Below the pieces are notes generated by a model. It saw only the letters and a program-made list of their open reading frames with translations. It was not told the DNA's origin and did not search any database. A stretch of DNA of 64,000 nt from Rubrivivax gelatinosus (GTDB lineage: Bacteria > Pseudomonadota > Gammaproteobacteria > Burkholderiales > Burkholderiaceae_C): positions 124,001-188,000 of the forward strand of contig NZ_SLXD01000007.1 of the NCBI RefSeq assembly GCF_004340905.1. Reading direction: 5' to 3'. The position numbers and the translations under genes are program-made. This document shows, piece by piece, positions 45,995-47,409 of this stretch (position 1 is its first letter; every line of letters starts with the position of its first letter).

Positions 45995-46882
45995 CTACGC
46001 GAGCGCCGTGTCCAGCACCATCATCAGCACGAAGCCGAGCATCAGCCCGGCCGTGGCCCAGCGCTCGTGGCCCTGGCGGTGCGACTCGGGGATGACTTCG
46101 TGGCTGACGACGAAGAGCATCGCCCCGGCAGCGAAGGCCAGCGCCCAGGGCAGCAGCGCGGCCGCTCCGGCCACCGCCGCAGCGCCGGCCACGGCGGCCA
46201 GCGGCTCGACCAGCCCCGAGGCCGCACCCAGCAGCGCCGCCCGCGTGCGCTTCATGCCCGCGGCGTGCAGCGCCAGCGCGACGACCAGGCCTTCGGGCAC
46301 GTCCTGGATCGCGATGCCTCCGGCGAGCGCCGTGGCGCGCGCCGCCTCGGCGCCGACCGCGGCGACGCCGATCGCCAGGCCTTCGGGGATGTTGTGCAAC
46401 ACGATCGCGAGCACGAACAGCAGCACCCGGCGCGGCCGGTCGCCGCCGTGCTCGCCCAGCGCGTGGGCGTGGGGCAGCAGGTGTTCCAGCAGCATCAGGC
46501 CGCCGGCGCCCACCAGCAGCGCCGCGCCGATGCCGGTGGCCCGAGCCCAGGGCGCGAGGCCCGCGGCGCGCGCCGCCTCCAGCGCCGGGTTGAGCAGCGA
46601 GAAGCAGGTGGCGGCCAGCATCACGCCGGCGCCGAAACCCAGCAGCGTGTCCTGGGTTCGCTGCGCCGGCGCGCGCGCCAGCAGCAGCGGCAGCACCCCG
46701 AGCGCGGTGGCCAGCGCCGCGGCGGCGCCCAGCGCGCCGGCTTCGACGATCGCCGGCGTCACCGCGACGGCACGCCAGGCGTCGCTCAGCACGATCACGG
46801 CCCCGCCGCCGCACAGGGCCACCCCCAGCCACTGCAGCGGCCGCAGCCCGGCCGACGGGCGCGGGGCGCCGAGGCCGTTCAC
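45995..46882 (-). CDS. ZIP family metal transporter
   Basis: The 295-residue protein has about eight helices and the ZIP metal-site motifs HNIPEGLAIGVAAVG in helix 4 and FVVSHEVIPESHRQGHERW in helix 5. A histidine-rich stretch LEHLLPHAHALGEHGG precedes them. ZIP proteins take up Zn, Fe or Mn. GTG at 46882 overlaps the stop of the FagA-like gene by four bases and removes an arginine- and proline-rich upstream extension that looks like a shadow frame. Placed behind a Fur-type promoter, iron or manganese import is a fair guess. I recall a ZIP gene in the fagA-fumC-sodA cluster of Pseudomonas aeruginosa, which supports the pairing. Confidence 0.87.
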   Translation of the reverse strand: MNGLGAPRPSAGLRPLQWLGVALCGGGAVIVLSDAWRAVAVTPAIVEAGALGAAAALATALGVLPLLLARAPAQRTQDTLLGFGAGVMLAATCFSLLNPALEAARAAGLAPWARATGIGAALLVGAGGLMLLEHLLPHAHALGEHGGDRPRRVLLFVLAIVLHNIPEGLAIGVAAVGAEAARATALAGGIAIQDVPEGLVVALALHAAGMKRTRAALLGAASGLVEPLAAVAGAAAVAGAAALLPWALAFAAGAMLFVVSHEVIPESHRQGHERWATAGLMLGFVLMMVLDTALA

Positions 46883-47247
46883 GGTTCGGCGCGGTCGACC
46901 GGCCGCAGCGTGAAGCGCGCCAGCCGCGCCGCCAGCGCCTGCAGGCGCTCGGCCTGCCCGTCGTCGGCCACCAGCGGCCCCAGGCGCGCCAGCGGCCGGC
47001 TGGCGGCGTCCAGGCAGGTCATGCGCCAGCACACCGGCAGCAGCGCGTCTTCGGCGGTGTCCAGCAGCAGGCGCAGCATGCGTTCGTGCACCGTCCAGGC
47101 GCGCTGGCGGTAGGCGGCGACGAGGCGCTCGCCCTGGTGGTGGTAGGCGCACAGCAGGCGTGGCTCGTCGGGCTCGAGCCCGAGACGGATGTGCATCGCG
47201 ATGCGCTGCCAGTGGCGCACTGCGGCCTGGGTCTCGGCGGGGCCCAT
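46879..47247 (-). CDS. FagA-like Fur-associated protein
   Basis: The 122-residue protein has no signal peptide or membrane span. Its pattern MHIRLGLEPDEPRLLCAYHH...WTVHERMLRLLLDTAEDALLPVCWRM...CLDAASRPLARL resembles, from memory, FagA of Pseudomonas, a Fur-regulated protein of unknown role encoded before fumC and sodA. I cannot confirm this by search. It has GTG-coupled overlap with the ZIP gene and is preceded one base after the stop of a 14-codon micro-ORF. Its promoter region carries a Fur-type palindrome, so it should be switched on when iron is short. Confidence 0.6.
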   Translation of the reverse strand: MGPAETQAAVRHWQRIAMHIRLGLEPDEPRLLCAYHHQGERLVAAYRQRAWTVHERMLRLLLDTAEDALLPVCWRMTCLDAASRPLARLGPLVADDGQAERLQALAARLARFTLRPVDRAEP

Positions 47248-47248
47248 C

Positions 47249-47293
47249 TCAGCGCTCCGGCAGACGGGCGGTGGCGGGCGGAAGGACGGTCAT
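47249..47293 (-). CDS. Micro-ORF coupled to the FagA-like gene
   Basis: A 14-codon frame (MTVLPPATARLPER) starts at an ATG preceded by GAGGAG at good spacing. Its TGA is one base from the ATG of the FagA-like gene (TGAGATG), so translation of the micro-ORF may load ribosomes for the next gene. It could be part of a 41-codon frame beginning at ATG 47374, very close to the predicted transcript start. No homologue recognised; the peptide itself may have no function. Confidence 0.35.
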   Translation of the reverse strand: MTVLPPATARLPER

Positions 47294-47379
47294 GGCGGGC
47301 TCCTCGGCGGGGCATGCACCGGGGCACCTGGACGCGGGCTGCATGCTGGGGTTCTGCGGCTTCGGCGAAGCCATGAACC

Positions 47380-47409
47380 ATCTTACATGCGAATAATTCG
47401 CATTTGCAA
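47380..47409 (-). promoter_or_regulatory. Fur-type operator within a sigma70-like promoter
   Basis: On the minus strand, TTGCAA (47404-47409) and TAAGAT (47380-47385) form a -35/-10 pair with an 18-base spacer. A perfect 17-base palindrome, ATGCGAAT-A-ATTCGCAT (47387-47403), fills the spacer. Its core TGCGAAT-A-ATTCGCA has the 7-1-7 layout of Fur sites (TGATAATnATTATCA). Binding there would block RNA polymerase, so the FagA-like/ZIP operon should be repressed when iron is plentiful. Confidence 0.75.

Follow-up and report, generated by a model that had tools for sequence, protein, structure and literature searches.

The window, i.e., the whole stretch of 64,000 nucleotides of the genome of the purple bacterium Rubrivivax gelatinosus that was analyzed (contig NZ_SLXD01000007.1, positions 124,001 to 188,000), carries a short operon of two genes, the first encoding a protein of the FagA family and the second a ZIP-family transporter, which overlap in the sequence GTGA (Table 1). 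The genes follow a sigma-70-like promoter whose 18-bp spacer is filled by a palindrome, and a leader of ~130 nt separates this promoter from the 122-codon gene. An overlapping pair of a FagA-like and a ZIP gene downstream of the promoter had been proposed from the sequence, and the two products are now assigned by profile (FagA) and by Pfam family PF02535 (ZIP). A gene for a hybrid histidine kinase precedes the promoter on this strand, its stop codon lying ~90 bp away, while murB follows downstream in convergent orientation; with these two genes as flanks, neither fumC nor sodA is found in or beside the operon, as had been claimed. Read-through from the histidine kinase gene may reach the operon, a point counted against the reading favored below. 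The closest named record with the gene is that of R. benzoatilyticus JA2 at 90% identity, in a comparison from which nearer records are possibly missing.

Table 1. Features of the fagA-ZIP operon (positions in the window).
Feature	Position	Strand	Basis
-35-like hexamer TTGCAA	47404-47409	minus	direct reading
Fur-type operator (candidate), perfect 17-bp palindrome ATGCGAATTATTCGCAT	47387-47403	minus	sequence, genome search, conservation
-10-like hexamer TAAGAT	47380-47385	minus	direct reading; 18-bp spacer to TTGCAA
14-codon upstream reading frame	47249-47293	minus	behind GAGGAG; stop 1 base before fagA ATG
fagA-family gene, 122 aa	46879-47247	minus	profile searches (A1-A3); adjacency to fumC in relatives
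ZIP-family divalent metal transporter, 295 aa, GTG start	45995-46882	minus	PF02535; BbZIP similarity

The leader contains a short inverted repeat, GGCTTCGGCGAAGCC, at positions 47358-47372, which is without a T run and could possibly form an RNA hairpin. The 14-codon frame that precedes fagA hints weakly at a leader peptide. It has the same length in three of the four Rubrivivax genomes that share the gene pair (G000, which is the genome of the window, G437, and G049) and is missing in G438, where its ribosome-binding site starts FagA directly and the protein begins with MSCHSHSH.

Direct reading bears out the placement of the palindrome between TTGCAA and TAAGAT at a spacing of 18 bases, and the perfect 17-base palindrome originally described as 7-1-7 is real, its symmetry being even slightly larger (8-1-8). 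Perfect 8-1-8 palindromes as such are commoner in the window than expected, as 15 of them occur in this DNA of 72% GC content compared with a mean of 4.9 in 60 dinucleotide shuffles, and on this count the element might be a functionless inverted repeat that arose by chance. Against this, the other 14 palindromes consist mostly of G and C, whereas ATGCGAATTATTCGCAT has 11 A/T among its 17 positions, and none of the 60 shuffles contained an 8-1-8 palindrome with at least nine A/T. Its location between two promoter hexamers, its match to a motif of iron genes and its retention in four species make a chance origin scarcely credible.

When the complete genome was searched with TGMGAATNATTCKCA, allowing no more than two mismatches, 27 places were returned, compared with a single one for a reversed-pattern control; TGCGAATNATTCGCA, with no more than three mismatches allowed, returned 57 places versus 26 for its reversed-pattern control. 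The site in the window is the sole exact genomic match to either pattern, a top rank that is partly built in, since the patterns were picked with knowledge of this site. Twenty-five of the 26 other sites were inspected, and ten iron-gene-like neighbors, picked by eye, were submitted to Pfam, which identified FeoB, four ECF sigma factors, three TonB-dependent receptors, TonB and FTR1; given this selection, ten out of ten is not an unbiased figure. Some sites of the set fall within predicted reading frames, which was counted against a Fur-controlled operon. Six Fur-type sites are crowded into 29 kb of contig C5 of the same genome (114-143 kb), some of them adjoined by TonB receptors and an ECF sigma factor, and this segment is probably a large iron-uptake region.

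Four Fur-family proteins are encoded in this genome (L046 on contig C11, L047 on C9, L048 on C1, and L049 on C14), of which, by reading, L046 and L047 are Fur-like, L048 is Zur-like and L049 is Irr-like. Their presence was counted in favor of Fur control and their multiplicity, with two Fur-like members, against it: the palindrome might be the site of another metalloregulator, namely L047 (the second Fur-like protein), L048 or L049, in which case the signal would be zinc, heme or peroxide rather than iron. ZIP proteins often carry zinc, which suits this alternative. In an excerpt on Pseudomonas, PA4467 is likewise proposed to be a ZupT-like, low-affinity zinc importer, and this proposal also weighs against the iron-based reading (PMC8456098). 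However, the motif is also located beside feoB, tonB, FTR1 and genes for ECF sigma factors and TonB receptors, the Zur site of P. aeruginosa, quoted as GCGTTATAGTATATCAT in the same excerpt (PMC8456098), looks unlike the palindrome, and the counterpart operon of Pseudomonas is described as iron-responsive in the portions of two studies cited here (PMC3377617, PMC5145850). Control by one of these other regulators is regarded as quite improbable.

Conservation was assessed within the genus and at ZIP loci. At a cut-off of E ≤1e-10, a ZIP match was obtained in nine of 81 Rubrivivax genomes, the window's own included, and fagA lies directly before the ZIP gene in four of them (G000, G437, G049, and G438). 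When 41 ZIP loci were scanned, with flanks of ~1.5 kb that were shorter where a contig ended, these same four were the only ones to carry fagA and the only ones with a Fur-type site at up to one mismatch. Ungapped comparison of the four genomes revealed 23 invariant columns out of 31 in the promoter-operator segment, compared with one of 50 columns on the upstream side and 13 of 50 on the downstream side. Two genomes have TGCGAATTATTCGCA as their operator core and the other two have TGCGACTTATTCTCA and TGCGAACGATTCTCA, and the half-site changes, such as TGCGAAT to TGAGAAT, remain Fur-like. The -35-like hexamer is TTGCAA in three genomes and TCACAA in the fourth, while the -10-like hexamer is evenly divided between TAAGAT and TAGCAT. 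A Fur-type operator that overlaps the promoter and is kept in relatives suggests that the operon belongs to the Fur regulon. The original claim of a Fur-type site gains accordingly from the genome-wide set to which the palindrome appears to belong, several members of which lie near iron genes, and from its position being kept in four species. In 20 loci from Pseudomonadaceae, the best upstream match to the short consensus has one to three mismatches (one mismatch in four loci), which does not establish conservation of the operator in that family.

The name FagA was coined long ago in Pseudomonas. The 122-aa protein, scanned singly against Pfam and NCBIfam, gave no match, nor did two fagA genes from Pseudomonadaceae reach the cut-off in these collections; a model for this family thus apparently does not exist. 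A single-sequence search of 60 genomes of the genus detected the gene in six, the window's own included, and the alignment of these six sequences served as profile A1. Among 377 genomes of the class, A1 detected the gene in four further genomes, in two of which it lies directly before fumC. Extension with these further class finds (A2) added two strong matches, both before fumC, bringing FagA-profile genes directly upstream of fumC to four genomes of other families. Weak A2 matches in G068, G394 and G370 (E 0.003-0.009) were dropped as chance; the region in G068, the one inspected, contains a frame that remained weak in a local scan (E 1e-4).

A third profile, A3, built from the window protein and its relatives, matched in 32 of 119 genomes at E ≤0.01 (30 of them at 4.1e-13 or better); the 119 genomes were taken as Pseudomonadaceae, a name that rests on PrrF RNA matches above the gathering score in G190 and G401, both of which are without a FagA match to A3. 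Loci were fetched for 20 of the 32 matches, and fumC is next to fagA in 19 of them, with a SOD gene in 15 and a ZIP gene in 14. Since a profile built from relatives of the 122-aa protein recovers the gene that precedes fumC in 19 of the 20 Pseudomonadaceae loci inspected, this protein is, on sequence grounds, a FagA. The guess of a FagA-like protein thereby withstood the blank single-protein scans, and the profile search yielded the similarity on which it depended. Asp67, Trp74, Arg75 and Cys78 (D67, W74, R75, and C78) are invariant in all 36 aligned FagA rows. The structure is confidently predicted to be a five-helix bundle (pLDDT 89.4, pTM 0.82) for which Foldseek returned no match at E ≤0.001. 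Alignments by VIA-align with TPR-like proteins, Fis1 and designed helical proteins (Z up to 9.4) were set aside as lying within the chance range for helical bundles, and the one weak match in a PDB sequence search with A2 (E 0.4) was rejected.

Genes of the same family also occur in other surroundings. In different Rubrivivax genomes, FagA-family genes adjoin ChaN and DUF2325 (L018), DUF2325 and a TonB receptor (L019), or DUF2325, TonB and an ABC ATPase (L021), which has the appearance of an iron/heme uptake cluster. Further members are located beside a TonB receptor (L043) or PepSY_TM (L044) and, according to the annotation, on a plasmid of Sphaerotilus, where the gene immediately follows the receptor, heme-binding and ABC genes of a heme-uptake row (L125); one lies near a TctC gene, which is not an iron gene (L020). 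While the proteins of L018, L019, L021, L043, L044 and L125 share their family with the FagA of the window, the first five of these loci differ from the window operon in having neither a fumC nor a SOD motif and, at the cut-offs used, no ZIP match in their genomes. From its gene neighborhoods, the FagA family appears to track iron and heme uptake more than fumarase, and its presence in heme and siderophore-type loci argues for a link with metal uptake more than with fumarase or defense against superoxide.

The known operon of Pseudomonas (PA4471-PA4467, PFL_0906-0910) resembles that of the window in having fagA first, ZIP last and predicted Fur control, and its ZIP proteins group with the window ZIP in a tree. 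In the excerpts cited here, fagA-fumC-orfX-sodA corresponds to PFL_0906-09 and the ZIP gene to PFL_0910 (PMC3377617), and PA4467-4471 are given as an operon that has a Fur box (PMC5145850). The cluster of fagA, fumC, sodA and ZIP that had been ascribed to Pseudomonas is found in print, and ZIP is part of it in the 14 of 20 loci mentioned above. Expression of PFL_0910 rose by 2.44 (log2) in iron-deprived compared with FeCl2 medium and was not significantly changed relative to FeCl3; its authors suggest uptake of free iron and cite work from 1997 on Fur control of fumC-sodA (PMC3377617). Parts of other reports describe a shift of the fagA promoter by Fur in vitro (PMC9561280), the placement of PA4467-4471 in one correlated gene set (PMC10473638) and a rise of sodM and fumC1 on metal or iron depletion (PMC12455946). 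No function is given for FagA in these excerpts of the Pseudomonas literature. The window operon differs from that of Pseudomonas in the absence of fumC, orfX and sodA, and its fagA abuts the ZIP gene through the GTGA overlap. One Pseudomonadaceae locus (L165 in G469) combines fagA, SOD and ZIP with no fumC found, and is possibly an intermediate form of the operon.

The product of the second gene matches PF02535 with an E-value of 4.5e-27, and its closest solved structures are the entries of BbZIP from Bordetella bronchiseptica (E 1.4e-58), with 146 of 286 aligned residues identical (51%, PDB 5tsa). Using residue numbers and M1/M2 ligands that we take to be those of BbZIP, positions M99, H177, N178, E181, Q207, D208, E211 and E240 are all kept, while D144 is replaced by Glu. 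Both the Pfam match and the metal-ligand residues indicate a ZIP protein of the BbZIP type. BbZIP is better known for Zn and Cd, which was counted against an iron-based function, and in the tree it belongs to a neighboring group instead of the fagA-linked one. A second BbZIP-like ZIP is encoded in the genome of the window (L103, contig C2 at ~451 kb); it is 59% identical to the operon ZIP and has no Fur-type site or fagA within ~1.5 kb.

A 48-row tree, which omits eight long or odd rows (L080, L090, L091, L092, L093, L099, L100, and L101) and to which six of the 20 Pseudomonadaceae loci contribute no row as they gave no ZIP, joins the Rubrivivax operon ZIPs with those of Pseudomonadaceae fagA operons (97/93), apart from the paralogue of the same genome and from BbZIP. 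This grouping was also recovered in an earlier tree of all 56 rows, with an SH-aLRT support of 93 (unstarred). By this tree, the ZIP adjoining fagA falls into the clade of Pseudomonas-type operons, with the caveat that a topology constrained to unite the paralogue and the operon ZIPs could not be rejected (p-AU 0.08). That result leaves room for an independent origin in Rubrivivax, where a ZIP copy from local duplication and a FagA from a heme-uptake cluster would have converged on the Pseudomonas arrangement, and both the 59% identical paralogue and the FagA tree, in which Rubrivivax FagA groups with the Sphaerotilus FagA of the heme-uptake row (85/93), speak for it. The FagA tree is, however, weaker than the ZIP tree, and given the 97/93 grouping of the latter an independent origin is rather unlikely. 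Shared descent of the Rubrivivax and Pseudomonadaceae fagA-ZIP pairs is the better reading of the trees, short of proof.

Built on the candidate operator and its conservation, the operon layout, the homology of FagA and the ligands of the ZIP, the preferred reading, which we hold with a probability of roughly 80%, is that fagA-ZIP is a Fur-repressed, two-gene operon for metal import during iron starvation. Its organization is best read as a reduced variant of the fagA-fumC-orfX-sodA-ZIP operon of Pseudomonas, so that the minimal metal-uptake module for iron-poor conditions envisaged in the original prediction fits as the reduction of a known operon and not as a new kind. In this model, iron-loaded Fur would bind the palindrome in the promoter spacer when iron is sufficient and block RNA polymerase; upon iron starvation, Fur would leave and fagA-ZIP would be transcribed, with the two genes presumably coupled in translation via GTGA. 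The BbZIP/GufA-like transporter would then admit a divalent metal (Fe2+, Mn2+ or Zn2+) to the cytosol, either scavenging residual ferrous iron or bringing in a substitute, and FagA, a small five-helix protein, might act as an accessory of the iron-starvation response.

A variant of the same reading holds that the ZIP mainly imports Mn or Zn as an iron substitute, making this an iron-sparing operon. The SOD encoded in 15 of the 20 Pseudomonadaceae loci carries the motif NQDSPL, which we take to mark the Mn-type, in agreement with this variant. In contrast, the genome of the window contains a single Fe/Mn-family SOD, on another contig than the operon, which includes the sequence NNAAQIWNH, is without NQDSPL and carries Gln where iron-type enzymes do, a diagnostic by which we assume it to be iron-type. 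On this sequence evidence, it is unlikely that the window ZIP serves a Mn-SOD of its own operon; a known Mn-SOD client is lacking here, and the residues of the ZIP do not fix its specificity. Iron sparing is accordingly a realistic option to which we give somewhat less than even odds.

A further-reaching, speculative idea, which we consider unlikely, sees fagA-ZIP as the functional core of Fur-controlled fagA operons. FagA would then be a soluble partner of metal importers, i.e., a chaperone or gate regulator acting through its invariant Asp, Trp-Arg and Cys, that was recruited beside ZIP, heme and siderophore uptake; fumC and sodA would be optional passengers, and Rubrivivax would keep the core only.

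In the open-licence papers searched, none was found on a fagA-ZIP operon in Rubrivivax, and nothing relevant on Rubrivivax with Fur and ZIP or on BbZIP with Fur. As far as this search extends, the two-gene form and its conservation in four Rubrivivax genomes are new, as is the evidence that FagA represents a broader, unmodelled family associated with the uptake of iron and heme. That FagA and ZIP form a two-gene operon in nature narrows the question of what FagA does: whatever its role, FagA acts here from an operon that encodes neither FumC nor SodA.
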